Origin: Alphaproteobacteria bacterium
Lineage (GTDB): Bacteria; Pseudomonadota; Alphaproteobacteria; Micropepsales; Micropepsaceae
DNA: 64,000 nucleotides
Reading direction: 5' to 3'
NCBI GenBank assembly: GCA_019241645.1
Contig: JAFAWQ010000043.1
Span: forward strand, 62,001-126,000
Shown here: one piece after another, positions 15,564 to 55,122 of the stretch
Numbering within the stretch: position 1 is the first letter of the stretch
How the letters are laid out: each line of letters begins with the position of its first letter
Notes under the pieces: model-generated
Seen by the model: only the letters and a program-made list of their open reading frames with translations
Told to the model about the DNA's origin: nothing
The model's database searches: none
Translations under genes and position numbers: made by a program

Positions 15564-15867
15564 TCGTGCTGCTGCTTAAGGAGACGAAAGATAACGAGCA
15601 CATCGGCATTCGCGTCGCACGGGAAAACTCCGTCTGCTGAACATTGGCGGCTGCGTAGCACACGTCTGGCACTTGCGAAAATCGAGTGCTGCCAAACCAG
15701 GCGAATGCGGCGCGAAAAGCACAGGAAAACTACAAAGGCGTCAAGTCAGGGTCTTGTGAAGCGCGTTTTGCGCCGGAACGCTCGACAGCCAGGAACGCCA
15801 GGCTCACCCTTTTGTTAGCATTTTGGCGCACGATTAACGAACAGGAGGCGCCATTCGCGGAGGAAGG
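15564..15867. other. 304-bp divergent gap between the LysE gene and usg
   Basis: It should contain promoters for both flanking genes. A GGAAC followed after 16 bases by TGTT occurs at about 15791-15815, one base off the EcfG-type promoter consensus, on the usg strand. A GGAGGAAGG ribosome site precedes usg. Nothing else is recognised. Confidence 0.3.
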
Positions 15868-16131
15868 ATGAGCGAATTTGAACAGATGGTGCGCGGCTAT
15901 CGCCTGATGACGGCGGAGATTCTCTATCACATGCCGGACCATCCGGAGCTGCTGCAGAGCTTTCTCTGGCAGGAATTCGACCTGGCGCCGCGCTTTCCGG
16001 TGTTGAACAAGTTTTTGAGATTCTGGGAAACGAACATCGAGGGCCGCCTGCACACCGTTCGCGTAGCCGCGCGCGGCCTGATCGCACCGACCGAGTTGAA
16101 ATTGGCTGGCGGCGAGTTCACGCTGCACTAG
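15868..16131 (+). CDS. usg: Usg family protein
   Basis: The product is 87 aa and matches the alphaproteobacterial Usg family throughout: QMVRGYRLMTAEILYHMPDH, LLQSFLWQEFDLAPRFPVL and FLRFWETNIEGRLHTVRV. The family was first noticed next to tryptophan genes and is sometimes annotated as a subunit of phosphoribosylanthranilate isomerase; there is no firm biochemical evidence for that. A strong GGAGGAAGG ribosome site fixes the start. It converges with the dihydroorotase gene, overlapping it by 14 bp. Confidence 0.88.
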   Translation: MSEFEQMVRGYRLMTAEILYHMPDHPELLQSFLWQEFDLAPRFPVLNKFLRFWETNIEGRLHTVRVAARGLIAPTELKLAGGEFTLH

Positions 16132-32306: not shown

Positions 32307-33113
32307 ATGGCGCGAATAATAATCTTTCGACCGACTAGTCTGCCCAACTACATGCAGACCGTTCAGGACCTACAGCGCCGCGCCGGGCACGCGCTTTGGT
32401 TTCGAGGAAGTGGCAACATCGCTCACGCACTGGAGCCCTCACTCTATCGGCATCCGACGAGTAAGAAGCCCCTAGAACTACAGCTTCTTGAGCGGCAACT
32501 CATGACCCGGTTTCGTCAACGGAGCCTTCCTTACCATTCGCGCAACCTGTCGGATGATTGGGAAGCGCTGTTCTTCATGCAGCACTACGGCGTACCAACT
32601 CGCCTTTTAGACTGGACAGAAAACTCGCTAGTCGCTCTACATTTTGCGCTGATGTCGTCCTCAATCGGCGGGCGATCAGGCAAACCTAAGACTGCAATCA
32701 TTTGGGTCCTGAATCCGCACCTGTGGAACGAGCGGTCGCTTCAACATCTCTCATATCAAGGTGGACCACTTGCCCCCGGTGATGCTGGTCTTAAAGGTTA
32801 CGCACCGGCGGATTTGCCCGGCGTCGTCGCAGACTTCCCAGTTTGCTTGTATGGAGCGTACAACAGTCCTCGCATTGCTGCTCAACAAGGCGTATTCACA
32901 ATTTTTGGAACCAGTGGCGACTCCATGCAATCGCTAGTCAAAAATGGAACATTTCCCCTGAAGGCGTTGAGCGGCATTGCGATTCACCCATCGCGTATTT
33001 CGCGCATGCGCACCGCCCTTCTTAACCAAGGCATAACCGAGTCAGTAGTGTTTCCAGACCTAGAGGGTTTGGCTCGTGAAACAAAAAGGCACTTCGGATT
33101 TAAGGTGCGATGA
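32307..33113 (+). CDS. FRG-domain protein, first gene of a candidate defence operon
   Basis: The product is 268 aa (ATG at 32307; a TTG six bases earlier is possible, and the nearest GGAG at 32283 is distant). The FRG domain starts with W31-F-R-G34 and contains the diagnostic M91-QHYGVPTRLLDW103 segment followed by LVALHFAL. The domain name reflects the conserved Phe-Arg-Gly; its biochemical activity is not established. The remaining half (AIIWVLNPHLWN onward) is the usual C-terminal extension. It is AT-richer than its surroundings and overlaps the DUF262 gene by 4 bp (ATGA). The pair is not one I recognise as a characterised defence system. Confidence 0.85.
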   Translation: MARIIIFRPTSLPNYMQTVQDLQRRAGHALWFRGSGNIAHALEPSLYRHPTSKKPLELQLLERQLMTRFRQRSLPYHSRNLSDDWEALFFMQHYGVPTRLLDWTENSLVALHFALMSSSIGGRSGKPKTAIIWVLNPHLWNERSLQHLSYQGGPLAPGDAGLKGYAPADLPGVVADFPVCLYGAYNSPRIAAQQGVFTIFGTSGDSMQSLVKNGTFPLKALSGIAIHPSRISRMRTALLNQGITESVVFPDLEGLARETKRHFGFKVR

Positions 33114-34219
33114 GTAAGTCCAAATCGAACCTCAAAGTGACACCCGGCGAGGCTAGAACGCTTTCTTGGTGGAAGACCCGCAAAGACAAAATCGACATGG
33201 ACCCGCCGTACCAACGCAGAGGGCGGTTGTGGTCCAAGACTGATAAGGGGTATCTTATCGACTCAATCCTAAATGGATTTGATGTTCCGAAATTGTATGT
33301 CGCGGACTTCACGTATGTAGACTCTAAGCTCAACCGCAAGCGACTTCCTTACGCGATTATCGATGGCAAACAACGGTTCGAGGCAATTTTCGATTTCTTT
33401 GCGGGAGAAATCACTCTTAATCCCGATTTCTTGTTGCTGGAAAATCCGGGTCTCAAACTTGGGGGGTTGGGATACCGTGATCTTGCTCGGAACCACGCGG
33501 AAATTGCAGAGACATTCGATAATTACAATCTATCCGTAATGAGCGTGATCACTAACAGCGAGGCGCTTATCAACGAACTGTTTGTGCGCCTAAATCGAAG
33601 CAAACCCCTTACGGGTGCAGAAATCAGAAATGCTATGGCGGGCCCCGCGCCGGCGGTAATTCGCCAGCTCGCAAAGCACGAGTTCTTTGTAGAGCTAGTG
33701 TCCTTTACCATGCAACGCGGCCAAGATCTCAACGCGGCGTCGAAGCTCCTGTTATTTGAGTTCAGCGACAAACCTCAAGAGACAAAGAAAAGCAGTTTGG
33801 ACAGTTTCGTTAGATCGGCGACCAAAAAACGTTCTCAATTGGAACTTGCTGCTCGCCGGACTATTGCCGGCCTCAATATAATGACAGAAATCTTCCTTCC
33901 AAAGGACCGGCTTTTAGTGTCGAACGGCGTGATACCAGTCTATTATTGGTTCATTCGCTCACTCAAAGAACCCGAGTATCGCCTAGTACGTGACTTTCTT
34001 GTCCGATTTGAAGAACAACGGAAAGCGAACAGACAAAGGGCGGAAAGAAGTAGCCGAACTGCCAGCCTTGATCAGGAGTTACTGGAGTACGATCAGTACA
34101 ACCGCAGTACGAATGATTTGGCAAGCTACAATGGCCGAATCGAAATTTTGAAGCGGCGCTTTTCCAAGTTTGTTTCTACCGCGGGGGCACCGAATCTCTT
34201 CGAATCGCAGGAGCGATGA
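33110..34219 (+). CDS. DUF262-domain protein, second gene of the FRG operon
   Basis: The product is 369 aa. The DUF262 (GmrS-N-type, ParB-like) domain is marked by PPYQRRGRLWSKTDKGYLI, the nucleotide-site signature D85-G-K-Q-R89 (canonical DGQQR) and F158-V-R-L-N162 with KPLTGAEIRNAM. In GmrSD, SspE and BrxU this domain binds or hydrolyses nucleotides and controls an attached nuclease. No DUF1524/HNH motif is present here, and the C-terminal 100 residues are charged and helical, so an effector may come from the FRG partner. Base composition is notably lower in GC than in the flanks, and rarer codons are used. Coupled to the FRG gene by a 4-bp overlap. Confidence 0.87.
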   Translation: MSKSKSNLKVTPGEARTLSWWKTRKDKIDMDPPYQRRGRLWSKTDKGYLIDSILNGFDVPKLYVADFTYVDSKLNRKRLPYAIIDGKQRFEAIFDFFAGEITLNPDFLLLENPGLKLGGLGYRDLARNHAEIAETFDNYNLSVMSVITNSEALINELFVRLNRSKPLTGAEIRNAMAGPAPAVIRQLAKHEFFVELVSFTMQRGQDLNAASKLLLFEFSDKPQETKKSSLDSFVRSATKKRSQLELAARRTIAGLNIMTEIFLPKDRLLVSNGVIPVYYWFIRSLKEPEYRLVRDFLVRFEEQRKANRQRAERSSRTASLDQELLEYDQYNRSTNDLASYNGRIEILKRRFSKFVSTAGAPNLFESQER

Positions 34220-34479: not shown

Positions 34480-34552
34480 TAACGGCCACCGCGGGAGCCG
34501 AGTGGGCGGGGCTGCGGGGCTGCGACCAAGAGGGTGGGAACCAGCTCTCTCG

Positions 34553-34600
34553 CCAATGGTTTGCAGTCACTCCTCCAATGGTTTGCAGTCACTCCTCCAA
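34553..34600. repeat. 22-bp tandem repeat, 2.2 copies
   Basis: The unit CCAATGGTTTGCAGTCACTC plus CT is repeated exactly twice, then four more bases. It lies just upstream of the alpha/beta hydrolase start, at the right edge of the island. Confidence 0.85.
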
Positions 34601-34615
34601 CCAAACGCGGCTTGT

Positions 34616-35575
34616 ATGATCCTCTCAAATGTTTCGTCGCGTCCGGTTGTCCGCTGGACGGCAGCAACCGCTTCGGCGCTGGCGGCCGCTGGACTTGCGA
34701 ATGCCTGGCTGGCGCGAAAGGCGGAGCGCGAACGTCCGCCGCTCGGCCGTTTTCTGCGCGTGCGGGGCCAGCGGCTGCATGTGGTGGACCGCGGTGAAGG
34801 AAAGCCGCTGGTGCTGCTCCACGGCAACGGCAGTTCGGTGGAAGATTTCGCTGTCAGCGGCCTCATCGACCGTGCAGCCGCAAGATACCGCGTCATCGCG
34901 TTCGATCGGCCGGGCTTCGGGCACAGCCCGCGCGGCACGGGACGCTTTCAGAGTCCCGAGCAACAGGCGGACCTGCTCGCTGCCGCCTTGCGGAAGCTTG
35001 GCGCGCAGCGAGCAATTATCTTCGGGCATTCGTGGGGCACCCTGGTGGCACTGGCGCTAGCCATTCGTCATCCCAGCGCGGTTGCCGGGCTGGTGCTCGC
35101 CTCCGGCTATTACTTTCCCACGCCGCGGCCGGATGCGTTGCTGTTCTCGCCGCCCGCTATTCCGCTGATCGGCGATGTTCTCGCCTACACTGTGTGGCCG
35201 CTCATCAGCCGGCTCACCTGGCGGCTGCTGATGCAGCAACTGTTCGCGCCCGCCGCGGTTTCGCAAAGGCTATCGCGCTGCCTGAAGCCCCTGGCGTTGC
35301 GCCCCACTCAGGTGCGCGCCGCAGCTGCGGAATCCGCCTCCATGATTCCGGCCGCAAATCGATTGTCGGATCATTACAGAGACATTCGTGCGCCCGTGAC
35401 GATCATTGCCGGAGATGGCGACCGCATCGTATCGCCGGAGCAGGCACACCGGCTGCAGGGCGCGCTGCGTATCAGCTCACTGGAACTGGCAAACGGTGTG
35501 GGCCACATGGTGCATCACAGCGCGCCTGAACTGGTAACGGCAGTCATCGACCGTGCCATGATCCACGCGACGTAA
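34616..35575 (+). CDS. alpha/beta hydrolase, membrane anchored
   Basis: The product is 319 aa from the ATG at 34616; there is no clear ribosome site and the frame is open to 34460, so the start is uncertain. Residues 12-30 can form an N-terminal anchor. The catalytic triad is visible: nucleophile Ser in GHSWGTLVALA, the acid in AGDGDRIVSPEQA and the base in VGHMVHH. HGNGSSVEDF supplies the oxyanion region, and FDRPGFGHSPRG is the usual loop. The substrate is unknown. It stands alone, to the right of the accessory island. Confidence 0.88.
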   Translation: MILSNVSSRPVVRWTAATASALAAAGLANAWLARKAERERPPLGRFLRVRGQRLHVVDRGEGKPLVLLHGNGSSVEDFAVSGLIDRAAARYRVIAFDRPGFGHSPRGTGRFQSPEQQADLLAAALRKLGAQRAIIFGHSWGTLVALALAIRHPSAVAGLVLASGYYFPTPRPDALLFSPPAIPLIGDVLAYTVWPLISRLTWRLLMQQLFAPAAVSQRLSRCLKPLALRPTQVRAAAAESASMIPAANRLSDHYRDIRAPVTIIAGDGDRIVSPEQAHRLQGALRISSLELANGVGHMVHHSAPELVTAVIDRAMIHAT

Positions 35576-47435: not shown

Positions 47436-48365
47436 ATGCGCGATCCATATGACATTCTGGGGGTGAGCAAGGGCGCGAGCGAAGCCGACATCAAGAAGGC
47501 TTTCCGCTCGCTGGCCAAGAAGCACCATCCCGATACCAAGGGCGGTGACGCCACCGCGCAGAAGAAATTTCAGGAGATCAGCGGCGCCTACGACATCCTG
47601 GGTGACAAGGAGAAGCGCGCCAAGTTCGACCGCGGCGAAATCGACGCCAGCGGCAATCCGCGCGGCTTCGATCCGCGCTCGCATGGCGGTTTCGAAGGCA
47701 ACCCGTTCGGGGGTCGCGGCGGTTTCCAGCATACCTGGAGCGGCGGCGAGACCGCGGAAGGATTCCACCCCGAGGACATCCTTTCTGAGCTGTTCGGCGG
47801 CGGTGGTGGCGGCGGCGGCCGGCGCAGGCGCGCGCGCCCCGGCGAGACCTACGAGATGTCTGTCACCGTCAGTTTTGCCGATGCTGCCAAAGGCGGCACG
47901 CGCCGTGTCTACATGCCCGACGGGCGTGAGGTGGACGTGCGCATTCCGGTGGGCCTGCGTGACGGGCAGCAAATTCGCCTCAAGGGCCAAGGTGGCGAAG
48001 GCCGCAATGGCGGCCCGCGCGGCGATATCCTGCTGAATGTCGCGGTCTCGCCGCATCCCTATCTGACGCGCGACAGCAACGATCTGCGCATGGACTTGCC
48101 GATCACGCTGCAGGAAGCCGTACTGGGCGGAAAGATCACCGTACCGACGCTTACGGGTTCGGTGGCACTCAGCGTCGCTGCGAACTCGAATTCCGGCACG
48201 GTTCTGCGCCTGAAGGGCAAGGGTATTCCCGCGCATGGAAATGAGGCGGCGGGCAATCTCTATGTGAAGTTGGTCGTCGCGCTTCCCGATGGCGCCGATG
48301 CCGAGCTGCGCAAATTCGCGGAGAGCTGGACGGCCAACTACAATCCGCGCGCGAAGCTGCGCTAG
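47436..48365 (+). CDS. DnaJ-family co-chaperone without zinc finger (CbpA-like)
   Basis: The product is 309 aa. The J domain is at 3-65 with the HPD motif (KKHHPDTKGGD), followed by a Gly/Phe-rich linker and a Gly run before RRRRARPGE. The C-terminal DnaJ substrate-binding domains (MSVTVSFADAAKGGTRRVYM, GLRDGQQIRLKGQGGEG, VLGGKITVPTLTG) are present. The central CxxCxGxG zinc finger is missing, so this is a type II DnaJ/CbpA form. It activates DnaK ATPase in protein folding. It faces away from the stress/membrane cluster. Confidence 0.9.
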   Translation: MRDPYDILGVSKGASEADIKKAFRSLAKKHHPDTKGGDATAQKKFQEISGAYDILGDKEKRAKFDRGEIDASGNPRGFDPRSHGGFEGNPFGGRGGFQHTWSGGETAEGFHPEDILSELFGGGGGGGGRRRRARPGETYEMSVTVSFADAAKGGTRRVYMPDGREVDVRIPVGLRDGQQIRLKGQGGEGRNGGPRGDILLNVAVSPHPYLTRDSNDLRMDLPITLQEAVLGGKITVPTLTGSVALSVAANSNSGTVLRLKGKGIPAHGNEAAGNLYVKLVVALPDGADAELRKFAESWTANYNPRAKLR

Positions 48366-48444
48366 GCTGAGTTCCCACATCACAAAAAAACGCGAACGAG
48401 GCGCTCGAAAGCAGCCTCGTCCACGCCGGGGTAATTCTCGTTGT

Positions 48445-49302
48445 CTACAGTCGGGCCGGGCGCGACGACCAGGTGCGCCATGTCGGCGCGCCGCCGATCT
48501 CGCGCTCGCGGCCACCTTCACGTGCTGCGTACCACGACACGGCGGCACCGAGCAGCAAGGCGACGGCCGACAGGAACGCGATCATCACACCTGCCTGCCG
48601 CGCGCGTTTTAGCGCGTCATGCGAGCGAGGGATGATCTTGCTCACCCGCGCATCGGCTTCTTCCGGCGAGACATGCGCGCGGGTGGAGACGAGCATCGTC
48701 AGGTAGTCGCGATCCTCCGCCGAGACTCCGCTATGGCCCGACGACGTCAATAGAATCCGCGCCGCCTCCGCGCGGGCGTAGTTGACATCGTCCGCCGGCA
48801 ATGGCCGCTCGGAGCGGAACAATTGATCGAGCTCATAAGCCAGCGAATCTTCGCCGGCTACCGACGTGGACGGCCCAGCGCTGCCGCTGCCGGGTACGGC
48901 CGCGGGCGCCGCCACGCCAGCCGCACCGAGCGCAATCACCGCGCCCAACACAATCGCCAGTGCCCACGCGAGCAGGCCATGCATGCCGTCGCGAAACTCA
49001 CTTTCGTCAGAGGCCACCACCGAGGCGGTGCGCGTCCGCAAACGGCCGGCGACGTAACCGCCCAGGCCGAAGCTCAACAGCGCAACCAGGACAAGATAGA
49101 GGCCGGAAAGGAACCATAGAGCAAAGGATGCATCTCGCCAGGTGGGGGACACGGAACTGACCGCAAGACCCACGCCCGCTCCAAAGGCAAGCAGCACGAA
49201 CGAAACAGCCGCCGCGGCAATGGCGCCGGCAATAATCGAACCCCAGTGCACGCTGACAACCGGGCCGGTGACCGGCACGGTACTTTCCTGAACGATGGCC
49301 AT
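48445..49302 (-). CDS. membrane protein with glycine-rich helices, unknown function
   Basis: The product is 285 aa. Membrane segments are seen at about 23-50, 65-85, 108-132 and 246-265, rich in Gly and Ala (WGSIIAGAIAAAAVSFVLLA, ALLSFGLGGYVAGRL). A hydrophilic domain of about 110 residues lies between helices 3 and 4 and contains a GEDSLAYELDQLFRSERP segment. No domain is recognised; the layout resembles stress-linked TM proteins of alphaproteobacteria. It follows the 24-aa protein gene by 21 bp on the same strand. Confidence 0.75.
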   Translation of the reverse strand: MAIVQESTVPVTGPVVSVHWGSIIAGAIAAAAVSFVLLAFGAGVGLAVSSVSPTWRDASFALWFLSGLYLVLVALLSFGLGGYVAGRLRTRTASVVASDESEFRDGMHGLLAWALAIVLGAVIALGAAGVAAPAAVPGSGSAGPSTSVAGEDSLAYELDQLFRSERPLPADDVNYARAEAARILLTSSGHSGVSAEDRDYLTMLVSTRAHVSPEEADARVSKIIPRSHDALKRARQAGVMIAFLSAVALLLGAAVSWYAAREGGREREIGGAPTWRTWSSRPARL

Positions 49303-49323
49303 GGTTATCTCCTGGTTCTCAGC

Positions 49324-49398
49324 TCAACGCAGGCCGAAGAACGACAGGATCGCCAGAATGACGACGATAAGGCCCACCAGATAAATCAATCCGTTCAT
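49324..49398 (-). CDS. 24-aa single-span membrane peptide
   Basis: The reading frame starts ATG AAC GGA at 49398 and ends at TGA 49324. A GGAG site sits at good distance upstream. It encodes 24 residues, starting MNGLIYLVGLIVVILAI and ending FFGLR: one hydrophobic helix with a basic C-terminus. It is too short for routine gene calling. It lies at the 5' end of the unit that also contains the 285-aa membrane protein, and a weak EcfG-like match (gcAAC-N17-CGTT, reverse strand) lies about 50-75 bp upstream. Confidence 0.55.
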   Translation of the reverse strand: MNGLIYLVGLIVVILAILSFFGLR

Positions 49399-49510
49399 GT
49401 CCGACTCCGCAGAATCCGCTCGTTATGCCCCCTCGGATGGCTCAAGAACGCGGCGACGCCATGAAAAGTTGCAATTCGATGGATTGCTCCCCCAGGGAGC
49501 CGACAAACGG

Positions 49511-50563
49511 TCAGGCGTGAAGGCGCGGGGCCTTGCCGGCGACGCCCAAAGGATGCTCTTTCGCTTCCTTTTCGGGATGTTTGCTCGAATCCAGGATTTC
49601 GTTCACCTCCTCGCCGATCAGGATGACGATCACCGAAATCCAGATCCAGGTCATGAAGCCAATGCCCGCGCCAAGCGAGCCGTAGGTTTGATTAAAGGTG
49701 CCGAAGCGCGCCGCGTAATACGCAAACCCCATCGAAGCAACGATCCACACAAAAGCAGCCAGCGCGCTACCCCAGCTGATCCAGCGCCACGGAATGCCAC
49801 TGCGGCCGGGACCAAAACGGTAGAGCAGCGCGATCCCCAGCGCGAGCACTCCCCAGACGACCGGCCATCGCACAAGATCGATCGCGAATTCGAGATAGCG
49901 GCTCCACGAAACGGTCTTCAAGAAAGCCGGTACGACTCCCATGGCGGCAATCGCCAGCAGCACGAAGAAGAGCATGCCCGCGGTGAATGTCAGCGATATC
50001 AGATTGAGCCTAATGAATCCCCGGGTTTCCTTTTCCCTGAGCACGATGTTAAGCGCGTCGAACAGCGCTTTCATGCCCGCATTCGCGCTCCACAACGAGA
50101 AGGCCAAACCGCCCAAGGCGGCAAGCCCCAGCGCCTTGTCGCTCTTGGACGCGAGACGCTGAATCTGTTCCCCGAGTATTGAGACGGCGCCGCCCGGAAG
50201 AATGGTGGACAGCGACGAGAGATCGCCATGGATCGAGCGTGTGTCCGCAAAAATTCCGTAAATCGAAATGATCGCCGCGGTCGCAGGGAAGATCGCCAGG
50301 AGCAGGAAGAAGGTGACACCCGCTGAGATCGCCACAACGCGGTCATCGTAGATTTGCTTGTAGAGCTCCAGGAGGAACGATTTGGGTGTCAGTCGCGCAA
50401 GCTTGGGTTGAACTGGAGTGGTGCTGAAGCGGCGCGGATGTTCGTGCCGACCGAAGCCGGCGCCAAGCAGAAGAGCAGCGAGCGCTGCCGAAGCGAGCCG
50501 CGGCGTCCAAGCCGCAGCTCGCTGGCCGTGATCCTCAGTGGCGGTAAGCGTTCGCTCCGTCAT
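49511..50563 (-). CDS. YihY/BrkB-family membrane protein
   Basis: The product is 350 aa. The ATG at 50563 lies within the end of the upstream gene (29-bp overlap). Six hydrophobic helices follow an N-terminal cytosolic region. The BrkB/YihY domain is seen from YKQIYDDRVVAISAGVTFFL through LPGGAVSILGEQIQRLA, NAGMKALFDALNIVLREKE and GSLGAGIGFMTWIWISVIVI. The family was first linked to serum resistance but its activity is unknown. It is the last gene of the unit started by the EcfG-type promoter at 52555. Confidence 0.88.
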   Translation of the reverse strand: MTERTLTATEDHGQRAAAWTPRLASAALAALLLGAGFGRHEHPRRFSTTPVQPKLARLTPKSFLLELYKQIYDDRVVAISAGVTFFLLLAIFPATAAIISIYGIFADTRSIHGDLSSLSTILPGGAVSILGEQIQRLASKSDKALGLAALGGLAFSLWSANAGMKALFDALNIVLREKETRGFIRLNLISLTFTAGMLFFVLLAIAAMGVVPAFLKTVSWSRYLEFAIDLVRWPVVWGVLALGIALLYRFGPGRSGIPWRWISWGSALAAFVWIVASMGFAYYAARFGTFNQTYGSLGAGIGFMTWIWISVIVILIGEEVNEILDSSKHPEKEAKEHPLGVAGKAPRLHA

Positions 50564-51608
50564 CGGAGGCGCCTTCCGACCCCTGCGTCCCGACGGTCTT
50601 ATCGCCGGTCGTGGTTGTCCCGGCCTCGCTTTTTTCGGTCTCGCTGCGAATGGTTTCCGCCGCCGCATCATAGGTGCGCTGCGCCACGGATTTCACCTTT
50701 TCGTAGCCTTCATCGGCCAATTCGCGGGCCCTGCCTTTTAACTTCTCGGCCTGCTCACCAAGCATGCTGTTTTCCAGCCGGCTCAAGGGCAAAAGCGCGC
50801 CCAGTGCCACGCCGATCGCGAAACCTACACCTGCCACCAACAGAGGTTGCTCGCGGGCCAGCTGTCCCACACCCGAACCCGCGCGGCTCGCCGTGTTGCT
50901 CGCAGCGCGTCCTGTTCTTCGTGCCATTTCCGTTGTCCTTTCCTTGACGGAAGAGGCAGCCTCACCGACTGCATCCGCCGCACTGCTGATTGCTTCTCCG
51001 GACTTGTGCAACGCCGTATGGGCGAAACCGGTTGCCATCTCCTGTGTCCGGTTGGCAGCGCTCTTGGCGGCGTCGCGCCCTTTCTGCACCGTTCGGCCCA
51101 CAAACCCGCGCGAACGATCGCTGCCTTCTGTTTCGTTCTGAAGCGCGGCTTCGCCCGGTTCGAGTCTGCCGTCGCCGTTTTTGCCCGAACTTGTCATCGT
51201 TAACTCCTGCTGTCCTTGTGCCGCGACAATACGCGGTCGCGCGCGCGCCTCCCGAAGATGGTCAACAATCCGCCTCACTGCCCCAGGCGATCCAGCGCCT
51301 TCGAGTTCGTCATAACCTTGATAGTCGAGCCCATCGTGAAGCGGCACCACTCGCTGCCTTCGCAGACTGTCGGCGAGCACAATCCAGGCCACTCCAGTAA
51401 CGATCAGGGCGACAGGCACCGGATTTCGACGAAACTGCCGCTGTGCCTCGTGAACCAGCATGCGAACCATGTCGCGACCGGCGTCCGGACCCAACAACTG
51501 GTTGGCGATTTCGCCCGGTGTGACATGCGCCCGCAGCTCATCGACCAGCGCTGCAATATTGGCGCGATGTTGTTCCGAATCGCGCTCGATGGCGGGGATG
51601 TCGCTCAT
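50535..51608 (-). CDS. DUF3618-like / YqjD-like membrane protein, possibly two products
   Basis: The product is 357 aa. Residues 1-90 look like DUF3618 (DSEQHRANIAALVDELRAHV, GEIANQLLGPDAGRDMV) with a membrane helix around 70-88. Residues from M138 (MTSSGKNGDG) have a low-complexity stretch, then a long amphipathic region AADAVGEAASSVKERTTE and a final glycine-zipper helix (LLVAGVGFAIGVALGALLPL), as in YqjD/ElaB ribosome-docking proteins. A clean GCAGGAG site precedes the in-frame ATG of M138 (51197), so a separate 220-aa protein may be made. The start at 51608 follows the holin-like gene's stop (TGATG). Confidence 0.8.
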   Translation of the reverse strand: MSDIPAIERDSEQHRANIAALVDELRAHVTPGEIANQLLGPDAGRDMVRMLVHEAQRQFRRNPVPVALIVTGVAWIVLADSLRRQRVVPLHDGLDYQGYDELEGAGSPGAVRRIVDHLREARARPRIVAAQGQQELTMTSSGKNGDGRLEPGEAALQNETEGSDRSRGFVGRTVQKGRDAAKSAANRTQEMATGFAHTALHKSGEAISSAADAVGEAASSVKERTTEMARRTGRAASNTASRAGSGVGQLAREQPLLVAGVGFAIGVALGALLPLSRLENSMLGEQAEKLKGRARELADEGYEKVKSVAQRTYDAAAETIRSETEKSEAGTTTTGDKTVGTQGSEGASDDGANAYRH

Positions 51609-51997
51609 CACGCCTGAACCTGTGCCCGCACGCTCGCAACGTCGCGCCGAATCTGGTCGGCCGTCTTGGTTTCGGACAGTTTACCAACCTTGAGCCGGCC
51701 CAGTCCCAGCCAAATCGCAAGCCCACCCATCGCAAAAATGACCGCGCCCACGATCAGGCAGGACACGGCGAAATTCAGGCCCAGCAGCATCAAGCCGCCC
51801 ACGGCGGCTTCGAGCAGGAAGACAAGCGACAAAATCAGCACGAAGAGCCCGGCCACCATCATTGCCAGACCGATGGCCATGCGGCGCACCTTCTCGACCG
51901 CTTCCGCCTTGGCCAGCCGGATTTCGTTGCGGATCAGCGCGCTGATTTCGCCCAGCAACTCGGAAAAGACGGTACCGATCCCCCGATCGAGGTTCAT
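51608..51997 (-). CDS. phage holin-X / YqjE-like membrane protein
   Basis: The product is 129 aa. An N-terminal amphipathic helix (FSELLGEISALIRNEIRLAKAEA) precedes two membrane segments (about 44-66 and 73-98). The pattern matches the Act-holin-X (PF07332) family, found in non-phage loci with YqjD-like proteins. Start and stop overlap both neighbours (4 bp upstream, 3 bp downstream), so it is part of the stress operon and not a phage lysis gene. Confidence 0.8.
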   Translation of the reverse strand: MNLDRGIGTVFSELLGEISALIRNEIRLAKAEAVEKVRRMAIGLAMMVAGLFVLILSLVFLLEAAVGGLMLLGLNFAVSCLIVGAVIFAMGGLAIWLGLGRLKVGKLSETKTADQIRRDVASVRAQVQA

Positions 51998-52500
51998 TCC
52001 TCGTCCTCGTCCGCTAAGGTCACCGAACTGCGCAAAAGCCGCGAAACCACGAAGCCCGCGGCGAGCGCACTCCCGATAAACACGACCGGACGTTCCTCCG
52101 CGAAATCGATAGCCATCCGCGCCAGATCTTCGACGCTGTTGTCCCGCAACAACCCGGAAGCATCGTCAAGCTTTCCGGCCACCGAATGGATATAGTCGGC
52201 CGCGAACGGAACCTCACGGGCGATTTCATCGGCCGCACCGTGCACCGCCTGTGCGATGCCGCCGAGGCGTTCGGCGCCGCGGGATTTCTGTTCCTCTGCC
52301 ATGCTCTTTGCATTCTTCGCGATCGGCTGAATTGCAGCCGATGCCTGCGACTTGGCGGTTTGCGCGAGCTCCGAAATTTGCCCCTTCACGCCGCTGGACC
52401 GGTTGCCCTGGCCCTGACCGGCGTCGTCACTTCTTTCTGGCGGTGTCAATTCGGTCCCCTCCGCGAGATATGGGCTGGTTGGTTCGTGCTGCGAGCTCAT
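51994..52500 (-). CDS. stress-associated protein, nutrient-deprivation (NdiA)-like
   Basis: The product is 168 aa. The first 40 residues are polar (SPYLAEGTELTPPERSDD); the central part is a long amphipathic helix (GQISELAQTAKSQASAAIQP, EEQKSRGAERLGGIAQAVHG) and the end has a hydrophobic helix FIGSALAAGFVVSRLLRSS. Similar proteins are annotated 'nutrient deprivation-induced' in rhizobia. It is the first gene of an overlapping four-gene operon and has an EcfG-type promoter, which supports a general-stress role. Confidence 0.72.
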   Translation of the reverse strand: MSSQHEPTSPYLAEGTELTPPERSDDAGQGQGNRSSGVKGQISELAQTAKSQASAAIQPIAKNAKSMAEEQKSRGAERLGGIAQAVHGAADEIAREVPFAADYIHSVAGKLDDASGLLRDNSVEDLARMAIDFAEERPVVFIGSALAAGFVVSRLLRSSVTLADEDEE

Positions 52501-52554
52501 GGGTCAATCCTTTCGCTGCCGCGCGAACTGCGCGACTCTTTACACCAGCGGTAC

Positions 52555-52579
52555 AACGGCACGCCGTGACCGGAGTTCC
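52555..52579 (-). promoter_or_regulatory. EcfG-type general stress promoter
   Basis: On the minus strand GGAAC (52575-52579) and CGTT (52555-52558) are separated by exactly 16 bases. This matches the EcfG sigma factor consensus GGAAC-N16/17-CGTT. It is 54 bp upstream of the NdiA-like gene, leaving a normal leader. Confidence 0.75.
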
Positions 52580-52639
52580 GGTATTCTCCCATTTCTTTCC
52601 CGGAATGGAAGGCCGCACGCCAAAGAAGGTAAGCCAATC

Positions 52640-54178
52640 CTAGCCCGCTTCAACCGCCAGCTTGCTTTCATCCGCAAGAGCGGTCACTGCGGGGCCGTTC
52701 AAGGCGGTGCCGTCCGGCGCGAACTGGGAGCCGTGACAGGGGCAATCCCAGCACTGCTCCAGCGAATTCCAATGCACGACACAGCCCATGTGGGTGCAGG
52801 AGGCGGACCGCGTGTGCAGGACACCGTTGGCATCGCGGCAAGCTGCAACCTTGTGCAGGCCCTTGCGATAGAGACCGCCCTCGCCCGGCTTCAGCTTTTC
52901 GAGAGAATCTATATCGCCGGGGGTGACATATTCGGCAAAATTCTTGGCCACACCAAGATTCTCGGTGAGATATTCGCCAAGGCTCCCGGCGACTTTGCGC
53001 GACGGATTGTACACTTCGCTCCAGGGATTTGCGCCCGTCGCGATCAGGTCCGCGATAACCATTCCTCCGACGATGCCGTTGGTGATGCCCTGCCCCGAAT
53101 CACCACTCACCATGTAAACATGGTCGTTGCCGGGATTCTTTCCGATGAAGCCGCAATGGTCGACGGGCTCCAACACCTGCCCCGACCAGCGATGCGTGAT
53201 TTCTTTCAGCTGTGGAATGCGAGCACGCGCCCACTGCTCCAGCCTGCCAAAGCGCTCTTCGCCGTCATCGGCCTTCCCGGATTTGTGATCCTCACCGCCG
53301 ACGATTATGAGATCGTCGCGATCTGACCACGGTTGCAGCCGAACATAGTGGTAAGCCTCCAGCGTGTCCCAATAAAGCGCGTCCGCCAGGCTTCCATGCG
53401 GAATCGTCCCGCTGACAACGTATGTGCGGTAGGGCGCCTGTTTGGTGTGGACGGCGACGTGATCGTTGATCGGCGAGTTGGTGGCGACAATAGCATCGCG
53501 CGCGCGCACTTCGTGTCCTTCGGACGTCTTGACCAGCACCGTGCCGTCCAGCTCCTCCACAGACGTGACGCACGTGTTGGCATACAGCGAGCCGCCGCGC
53601 CCCAGTATCGCTTCCTGCAGCCCAGCGAGATACTTCAGGGGGTGGAACCGGGCCTGCCGGGCGAAACGCAAGGCGGGAACATTGCTCATTCCGCCCAGCG
53701 GGATGCCGCGCTGCTCGACAACCGCGACGCCAAGCCCGCGGCAGGTTTCGAATTCGCTGTGAAGATCCTCGCGCGGCGTGTCCGGCGCCAGAAACAAGTA
53801 CCCGTCCAGCCGGGCAAAGTCACAATCGAAACCTTCGGTGGCGCAAATCTGTTCAGCCCGGTCGATCGACGCCGCGAGGCTTTCGTGCAGAAGCCGCGCA
53901 GTGCTCTGGTCGCGCGACTTGATCAGCTCCGAGTAAAAATCATCCAGGGCGGAGGCGAGATGGGCCGTGGTGCGGGCCGTCATGCCGCTGCCAATCCCAC
54001 CGCGATCCAGCACGATCACAGAACGCCCGCGCGCCGCGAGCTCGTAGGCCACGGAAAGCCCGGCAATGCCGGAGCCGATCACGACCGCGTCTGCTTCCAT
54101 ATTGCCATGCAATGCCCGCCTCCGCGGCAGCGGGAATTCCATCCAGCAGGATTTCGTGCGTTCGTCAGCGACGTTCAT
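52640..54178 (-). CDS. FAD-dependent oxidoreductase with C-terminal Rieske domain
   Basis: The product is 512 aa. The ATG at 54178 follows GGAGG and lies just downstream of an EcfG-type promoter. The N-terminal DAO fold has the dinucleotide site VIGSGIAGLSVAYELAARG. The C-terminal 85 residues carry a Rieske 2Fe-2S domain, with C-T-H-M-G-C and CPCHGSQF as the two ligand pairs, within the GAYAC-like SASCTHMGCVVHWNSLEQ. The fusion is seen in stress-linked oxidoreductases of soil alphaproteobacteria. Substrate is unknown; glycine/sarcosine-oxidase-like chemistry is a guess from the fold. Confidence 0.9.
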   Translation of the reverse strand: MNVADERTKSCWMEFPLPRRRALHGNMEADAVVIGSGIAGLSVAYELAARGRSVIVLDRGGIGSGMTARTTAHLASALDDFYSELIKSRDQSTARLLHESLAASIDRAEQICATEGFDCDFARLDGYLFLAPDTPREDLHSEFETCRGLGVAVVEQRGIPLGGMSNVPALRFARQARFHPLKYLAGLQEAILGRGGSLYANTCVTSVEELDGTVLVKTSEGHEVRARDAIVATNSPINDHVAVHTKQAPYRTYVVSGTIPHGSLADALYWDTLEAYHYVRLQPWSDRDDLIIVGGEDHKSGKADDGEERFGRLEQWARARIPQLKEITHRWSGQVLEPVDHCGFIGKNPGNDHVYMVSGDSGQGITNGIVGGMVIADLIATGANPWSEVYNPSRKVAGSLGEYLTENLGVAKNFAEYVTPGDIDSLEKLKPGEGGLYRKGLHKVAACRDANGVLHTRSASCTHMGCVVHWNSLEQCWDCPCHGSQFAPDGTALNGPAVTALADESKLAVEAG

Positions 54179-54198
54179 GAGATACCTCCGCCCTCGGC

Positions 54199-54223
54199 AA
54201 CGGCACGGCAGCAGAGAGGTTCC
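54199..54223 (-). promoter_or_regulatory. EcfG-type general stress promoter of the FAD-Rieske gene
   Basis: On the minus strand GGAAC (54219-54223) and CGTT (54199-54202) are separated by exactly 16 bases, the EcfG consensus. The CGTT ends 21 bp before the start codon, leaving a short leader of about 14 bases that still holds the ribosome site. Confidence 0.75.
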
Positions 54224-54303
54224 GGTCAAGCGTCGATGGCGGAATGCTTGCCTTTTCGGGCAAACGGCCTTAGCCCCGCCAATGCCGCCACGGAGTGATG
54301 GGG

Positions 54304-55122
54304 ATGTCCACGCAAGGACTGATGAGCGGAAAACGCGGGCTCGTCATGGGCGTCGCCAATGACCGCTCCATCGCCTGGGGCATCGCCAGGGCGTTGCACG
54401 AGGCTGGCGCGGAGCTGGCTTTTTCCTATCAGGGGGAAACCTTCCGCAAGCGCGTGCTGCCGCTGGTCGAGCCGTTGAACCCGGCTGCCGTGATCGACTG
54501 CGATGTTTCGCAGCCGGAATCGCTCGACGCCGCGTTCGCCGACCTTGGCGGCAAATGGGACTCGCTCGACTTCGTCGTCCACGCCATTGCCTTTTCCGAC
54601 AAGGATCAGCTCAAGGGCCGCTACATCGACACCACGCCGGAAAACTTCCGGATGACGATGGACATCTCGTGCTACTCCTTCACAGCCGTGGCGCAGCGTG
54701 CGGAGAAGCTGATGCCCAACGGCGGCGGCATGCTGACACTCAGTTATTACGGCGCCGAGAAAGTGATGCCGCACTACAACGTCATGGGTGTCGCGAAGGC
54801 GGCATTGGAAGCCAGCGTTCGCTACATGGCCGAGGATCTCGGCAAGCGCGCCATCCGCGTGAACGCGATTTCCGCGGGACCGATCAAAACACTGGCATTC
54901 GCCGGCATCGCCGATTCCCGCTACATCCTGAAATGGAACGAGTACAATTCGCCGCTTCGCCGCACCGTGACACTTGAGGAAGTCGGCTCGACGGCGCTGT
55001 TCCTGCTCTCCGATCTCGGCCGCGCCGTCACCGGCGAGGTGCTGCACGTGGATTGCGGCTATCACGCCGTCGGCATGAAGGCAGTGGATGCGCCGGACAT
55101 CACGGTTCCGAAACCGGAATGA
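54304..55122 (+). CDS. fabI: enoyl-[acyl-carrier-protein] reductase (NADH)
   Basis: The product is 272 aa from ATG 54304, where a GGAG site sits at 8-bp spacing; GTG or ATG slightly upstream are possible. It reduces trans-2-enoyl-ACP in fatty acid elongation. The NAD site is GKRGLVMGVANDRSIAWGIA, and the catalytic Tyr-x6-Lys is in SYYGAEKVMPHYNVMGVAKAA. The C-terminal RRTVTLEEVGSTALFLLSD is typical. It overlaps the next gene by 4 bp. Confidence 0.94.
   Translation: MSTQGLMSGKRGLVMGVANDRSIAWGIARALHEAGAELAFSYQGETFRKRVLPLVEPLNPAAVIDCDVSQPESLDAAFADLGGKWDSLDFVVHAIAFSDKDQLKGRYIDTTPENFRMTMDISCYSFTAVAQRAEKLMPNGGGMLTLSYYGAEKVMPHYNVMGVAKAALEASVRYMAEDLGKRAIRVNAISAGPIKTLAFAGIADSRYILKWNEYNSPLRRTVTLEEVGSTALFLLSDLGRAVTGEVLHVDCGYHAVGMKAVDAPDITVPKPE

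Follow-up and report, generated by a model that had tools for sequence, protein, structure and literature searches.

EcfG-type promoters probably place a FAD-Rieske oxidoreductase gene and a membrane-protein operon of a Micropepsaceae bacterium in the general stress regulon

The 64-kb stretch of DNA analysed here (the window) holds two strict matches to the motif GGAAC-N16-CGTT. With a probability of roughly 0.88, both serve EcfG, the general stress sigma factor, as true promoters, and a variant third site drives the genes for a 24-aa microprotein and a 285-aa membrane protein. Judged from sequence, EcfG control of the FAD-Rieske gene and of the NdiA-like operon is very probable. EcfG promoters and the regulons of the alphaproteobacterial general stress response (GSR) are well known, and the promoters described here are a known kind of finding, better supported than an earlier note on this DNA could know. 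That note had tied the genes to PhyR-NepR-EcfG, and the tie is supported here by the sites themselves, by phyR, nepR and ecfG genes in the genome, by genome-wide enrichment of the motif in promoter positions and by recurrence of the motif before orthologues.

Results

Two strict sites and their placement

Scanning the window with spacers of 15-18 nt returned GGAAC-N16-CGTT only twice, both times on the minus strand and exactly where the earlier note had placed it (Table 1). From the end of the -10 element to the ATG there are 54 nt at the NdiA-like gene (52500) and 20 nt at the FAD-Rieske gene (54178); these are promoter-like distances, as the earlier note had also judged. GGAGG lies directly 5' of the FAD-Rieske ATG; this start is supported by orthologue alignment, and our own gene caller favoured 54100. 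Both sites combine a -35 GGAAC and a -10 CGTT with a spacer in the 16-17 nt range of EcfG promoters. In their -35, -10, spacing and position before a gene, and in occurring in a genome with phyR, nepR and ecfG, they agree with known EcfG (sigma-EcfG, RpoE2) promoters, from which the two strict sites show no difference, whereas the third site differs by its GCAAC -35. A scan for sigma-70 promoters and terminators over 48300-54400 gave nothing decisive.

Table 1 Features of the window connected with the EcfG-type sites.
Feature	Position	Strand	Basis
EcfG-type promoter GGAAC-N16-CGTT of FAD-Rieske gene	54199..54223	-	Exact match; motif recurs before orthologues
FAD-Rieske oxidoreductase, 512 aa, DAO fold and C-terminal Rieske domain	52640..54178	-	Pfam DAO 6e-52, Rieske 2e-8
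EcfG-type promoter GGAAC-N16-CGTT of NdiA-like operon	52555..52579	-	Exact match; motif recurs before NdiA relatives
NdiA-like protein, 168 aa, one C-terminal membrane-like segment	51994..52500	-	ORF; hydropathy
YqjE-like membrane protein, 129 aa, PF07332 ('holin-X')	51608..51997	-	E 1.1e-21
358-aa ORF, N-terminal DUF3618	50535..51611	-	DUF3618 E 7e-6 (N-terminal part)
BrkB/YihY-family inner membrane protein, 350 aa, last operon gene	49511..50563	-	PF03631 E 9e-55; TIGR00765 over cut-off
Variant EcfG-type promoter GCAAC-N17-CGTT	49447..49472	-	Scan allowing GCAAC -35; same place in G056 (L275)
24-aa membrane microprotein MNGLIYLVGLIVVILAILSFFGLR	49324..49398	-	Relatives behind motif; codon-position differences
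285-aa membrane protein, four membrane-like segments	48445..49302	-	ORF; hydropathy

The NdiA-like operon and its relatives

The four genes of the operon, encoding the NdiA-like, YqjE-like, DUF3618 and BrkB proteins, overlap by 4, 4 and 29 nt. Our caller treated the DUF3618 ORF as one gene; two genes sharing a reading frame are the alternative. By hydropathy, the NdiA-like protein has a single hydrophobic segment (residues 138-156 of 168); it matched no Pfam family at E 0.01 and no NCBIfam model. The second protein scores 77.4 bits with PF07332 (cut-off 28.4), and E. coli YqjE reaches 75.8 bits (3.5e-21) with the same model. Because PF07332 also includes YqjE, the 'holin-X-like' label used before misleads.

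NdiA is found in five of the 96 genomes of our Micropepsaceae sample, its own included, and the four other loci all carry a site, with N16 in G056, N17 in G043 and G002, and a TGTT form in G025 that stands before the gene preceding NdiA. Across the class, 28 of 385 genomes have an NdiA match, again counting its own. Within 300 nt upstream of the 28 NdiA loci besides the window's own, the strict motif occurs in 11 and the relaxed motif in 19, and nine are without even the relaxed form; the reversed motif was present in 0/28, strict or relaxed, and the wrong spacing in 1/28. The flanks of these loci contain a YqjE relative in 15 cases and a DUF3618 relative in 17, part of the latter count perhaps reflecting alanine-rich tails. 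On a Bradyrhizobium plasmid, a relaxed site (AGTT) precedes a DUF3618 gene, followed by an NdiA relative ('hypothetical protein'), a 'phage holin family protein', a hypothetical gene and a member of GlsB/YeaQ/YmgE, a family of stress response membrane proteins. Among the matches listed (20 of 34), NdiA relatives in plasmid records are annotated as 'hypothetical protein' or not at all. An NdiA relative flanks just three (L165, L224, L232) of the best 80 of 320 FAD-Rieske loci, and the adjacency seen in the window is therefore not general. S. meliloti ndiA appears as rpoE2 (RpoE2)-dependent in the part of PMC2651895 available to us, which makes the promoter type the same; the name NdiA was given here by the earlier note, and S. 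meliloti ndiA is a putative counterpart by that name.

The operon resembles yqjC-yqjD-yqjE-yqjK of E. coli and PA3040-3042 of P. aeruginosa, in which YqjE likewise follows a protein with a single C-terminal segment and a stress sigma factor is involved, as far as the accessible text of these sources goes. The available part of the E. coli report describes a sigmaS-dependent yqjD promoter, recruitment of ribosomes to the membrane by YqjD, and a stop of growth on overproduction of YqjD or YqjE (PMC10746276); excerpts on PA3040-3042 (DUF883, YqjE-like) describe induction by cell envelope stress under AlgU control (PMC11302039). The operon in the window differs from the E. coli one in carrying DUF3618 instead of YqjK, in the added BrkB gene and in an NdiA that is not DUF883, and sigmaS and EcfG are sigma factors unrelated in kind.

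NdiA was also considered as a DUF883 (YqjD/ElaB/YgaM) protein, and this assignment was rejected: Pfam was negative, whereas YqjD matches both DUF883 models. Against a YqjD/ElaB/YgaM profile, the C-terminal tail alone aligned (32 columns, probability 31%). The single C-terminal membrane anchor typical of these proteins is present by hydropathy. Given the negative DUF883 result, NdiA can be likened to YqjD in its possible action but is not established as a YqjD.

On weaker grounds, and by analogy, we infer that the NdiA-YqjE-DUF3618 operon may work like the sigmaS-controlled yqjD-E-K genes. A wider proposal would give Alphaproteobacteria a conserved branch of the general stress response at the membrane, made up of EcfG-driven proteins that are tail-anchored or very small (NdiA, YqjE, DUF3618 and the 24-aa microprotein). 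As yqjD-E-K would for sigmaS in E. coli, this set would tether ribosomes to the inner membrane during stress and silence them; the proposal seems to us rather unlikely. We give about even odds to EcfG control being real but the membrane operon serving envelope maintenance under stress instead of acting on ribosomes or growth arrest. The missing DUF883 match of NdiA, with its tail-only alignment, fits envelope maintenance, as do the BrkB/YihY membrane protein at the end of the operon and the envelope stress induction of the AlgU-controlled PA3040-3042 genes in the excerpts cited above; the shared YqjE family, a neighbour order resembling yqjD-E-K, and the growth stop caused by excess YqjD or YqjE, as given in the available E. 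coli text, point away from it.

The FAD-Rieske gene and its upstream sites

Two domains are recognised in the FAD-Rieske protein, one with the DAO fold of amine/glycine oxidases and one Rieske domain of the cytochrome b6f/bc1 type. Nearest in sequence to the DAO-fold part are sarcosine/glycine oxidases, and to the Rieske part cytochrome b6f. In an alignment of six rows, CPCHGS and C[ST]H are present in all six, and the strict form CTHxGC in four, with CSH in L138 and L139; a count that sets CSHxGC and CSHxWC apart gives CTHxGC in five. No chain among 50 matched sequences spans both domains, and the best NCBIfam scores lie far under the cut-offs. An AlphaFold model obtained from six sequences has a mean pLDDT of 67.7, which is moderate confidence only. 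We infer, again on weaker grounds, that the protein may be a soluble flavin dehydrogenase sending electrons through a high-potential Rieske centre of the bc1/b6f type.

In the family sample, five other genomes have a full-length FAD-Rieske orthologue (about 48-70% identity; a split copy in G067 was left out). The strict motif stands upstream in G043 (N17), G026 (N16) and G042 (N17) and a GGTT variant in G055, giving a strict or one-letter-variant site in four of the five; G066 has no site upstream.

We extended the comparison to a collection of species genomes, taking the best 80 of the 320 loci that matched; all have alphaproteobacterial titles, and Bradyrhizobium is dominant. Within 250 nt upstream (one locus has just 114 nt of upstream sequence), the strict motif was found in 51 of these 80 loci and the relaxed NGTT form in 61, compared with 0.8 and 1.6 expected from the rate elsewhere in the same loci. 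The reversed motif gave 0/80 strict and 1/80 relaxed matches, and spacings of 20-21 and 12-13 gave 1/80 and 4/80. These loci are related to one another and dominated by Bradyrhizobium, and are therefore not independent trials. The 51 strict matches among the best 80 of 320 have 44 distinct spacers, and for 49 of them the gap between the end of the site and the beginning of the match is 15-65 nt. For both promoters, the orthologous sites differ in spacer sequence, with a spacer of either 16 or 17 nt.

The remaining 19 of these best 80 of 320 loci, which have no relaxed site, were sorted by eye. Ten keep GGAAC in place without the -10 (Rhizobium, Sinorhizobium/Ensifer and one Mesorhizobium; L197, L202-L205, L207, L208, L213, L228 and L195), which may be a promoter form recognised by a paralogue of EcfG. 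Three have GCAAC followed by CGTT (two Reyranella, one Rhodospirillales), and six show no clear site directly upstream. In three non-alphaproteobacterial records (Gemmatirosa, Haladaptatus and Pontibacter only), G[GC]AAC-N16/17-NGTT was absent within 250 nt upstream, and bare GGAAC occurred in two; three records are too small a set to carry weight.

A probable third unit encoding a microprotein

The earlier note held that two sites define the regulon of the window. Both sites stand, and a third probable unit spanning 48445-49472 had been missed. Its variant site lies 48 nt before the 24-aa ORF, and the same three parts (site, microprotein and 285-aa gene) recur in G056. Neither the microprotein nor the 285-aa protein has a Pfam match.

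Relatives of the 285-aa protein occur in 29 of 289 class genomes, its own included. Among 30 loci with such relatives, the window's own included, the 600 nt upstream contain the strict motif in eight and a relaxed motif (NGTT or GCAAC) in 20, with the reversed motif in two; a recognisable microprotein is present in six. One strict site (L021, G000:C26:27752-27776) stands directly upstream of a paralogue of the 285-aa gene in the same genome.

A search for the GGAAC motif followed after 20-50 nt by a microprotein start found the arrangement in 10 of 385 class genomes, and in 0/385 with the reversed control. The genome studied here falls outside these ten because its -35 is GCAAC. Nine of the ten ORFs encode 24 aa and one 22 aa. 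For 11 sequences of 24 aa (from nine class genomes, the window and G056), pairwise differences at codon positions 1, 2 and 3 number 330, 58 and 715, the pattern of a protein under selection as read from sequence comparison. A tblastn search with the microprotein gave no match in plasmid records, though it missed a copy in the same collection. This copy (L357:2270, B. japonicum plasmid) is a 24-aa ORF before a 285-aa relative, unlisted in an incomplete gene table, and has no motif of the scanned forms directly upstream.

The phyR-nepR-ecfG locus and other sigma factors

The genome has one NepR match, adjoining an EcfG-type sigma factor gene and divergent from phyR, and Pfam domains were found for all three proteins. 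The intergenic region between phyR and nepR-ecfG holds a strict site on each strand. The locus that the earlier note had named as a check is thus present, including the ecfG gene whose absence would have spoken against that note's reading, and its layout is close to one in S. granuli (PMC7083833, as far as the available text shows). For S. granuli, experiments yielded GGAAC-N16-CGTT as the GSR motif; in the same source, GCAAC is one of the two most frequent -35 elements, AAC is almost invariant and the -10 is flexible (PMC7083833, available text). A consensus given elsewhere is GGAAC-N17-20-GTT (PMC6599016, in the portion available).

Six proteins in the genome contain sigma-70 region 2. Apart from EcfG itself, three have a length short enough for an ECF sigma factor; the alignment with EcfG is at 34% for one of the three and at 30% for another. 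GGAAC-like -35 boxes are common to several ECF groups. The sites could in principle be real promoters of such a second ECF factor also reading GGAAC, and we regard this as improbable: the sites between phyR and nepR-ecfG have the same -35, -10 and spacing as those in the window, and the motif matches the one derived by experiment in S. granuli (PMC7083833, available text).

Position, not number, sets the sites apart

The number of motif matches was rejected as evidence, as window and genome counts both equal their controls. Two strict matches were observed in the window against 2.30 expected (at least two in 63 of 100 shuffles), and allowing one mismatch gave 13 against 15.7 expected. Across the whole genome, 64 strict matches compare with 72 of the reversed motif. 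Given this lack of excess over reversed controls, the perfect matches stressed in the earlier note are not evidence on their own.

Position separates the two sets. When each of the 64 matches and each of the 72 reversed controls was examined in its context, 47 of the former and 7 of the latter were intergenic (Fisher p about 1e-14), and 32 versus 3 lay at most 300 nt before a gene on the same strand. With the same words at a spacing of 20-21, 4 of the 30 matches examined (from 56) were intergenic and 2 promoter-like. Genes were called with our own codon-usage caller trained on the window, which misses very short genes, for example the 57-aa DUF1328 gene behind site C47:200230-200255. The placement of the sites before genes is far above chance. 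The idea that a degenerate motif in a G+C-rich genome fell between genes by accident agrees with the unremarkable number of matches, and is made very improbable by the intergenic share (47/64 against 7/72 and 4/30) and by recurrence before FAD-Rieske orthologues, where the 51 strict matches in the best 80 of 320 loci have 44 different spacers.

Other genes behind intergenic sites

We scanned with Pfam 34 genes outside the window that lie on the same strand at most 350 nt behind an intergenic site. At E 1e-4, 24 of the 34 had a match, in one case under the curated cut-off of the model; for the last four genes the scan was run at E 0.01, and their matches also pass 1e-4. Among the matches are DUF1328, CsbD, two DUF4142 proteins, iron/manganese superoxide dismutase, PRC-barrel, hemerythrin and DJ-1/PfpI. 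Others are a pyridoxamine-oxidase-like protein, a family-20 glycosyltransferase (trehalose-6-phosphate synthase), a CBM48/alpha-amylase protein and a transketolase, and further genes encode a KaiC-like ATPase, a single-strand binding protein and two YkuD proteins, alongside phyR and ecfG. Besides trehalose synthesis, several of these families are usual GSR targets. The otsA/otsB genes for trehalose synthesis are under EcfG control in B. diazoefficiens, according to the available part of PMC8092242.

Within the window, two looser sites were also seen between genes. GGAAC-N16-TGTT at 15792-15816 lies 51 nt before a Usg-family gene (15868-16131), and GGAAC-N16-GGTT at 34537-34561 lies 198 nt before an alpha/beta hydrolase gene (34760-35575). 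A gene at 33110-34219 encodes a GmrSD_N (restriction endonuclease-like) domain.

Discussion

Taking the partner switch and the recognition of the motif by EcfG from established knowledge, we propose that under stress phosphorylated PhyR would take NepR off EcfG. Freed EcfG, with RNA polymerase, would then transcribe the FAD-Rieske gene from one strict site and the operon of NdiA-like, YqjE-like, DUF3618 and BrkB genes from the other, and the variant third site would drive the 24-aa microprotein and the 285-aa membrane protein. In the open-access literature, as far as the texts covered go, neither the FAD-Rieske gene nor the microprotein is given among the targets of EcfG.

If the NdiA-YqjE-DUF3618 module works like yqjD-E-K, different bacterial classes would have put a comparable membrane response under sigma factors that are not related, and if the ribosome-tethering proposal were true, one and the same module would have come under unrelated stress sigma factors in different classes. 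The microprotein is conserved as a protein and has a stress motif before it in several genera, and so is a directly testable component of the stress response. Throughout the class, EcfG-type sites are found again before the FAD-Rieske oxidoreductase gene and before the NdiA-YqjE-DUF3618 module, and the promoters described here would assign seven genes, mostly without known function, to a defined stress regulon in a genome that has been little studied.
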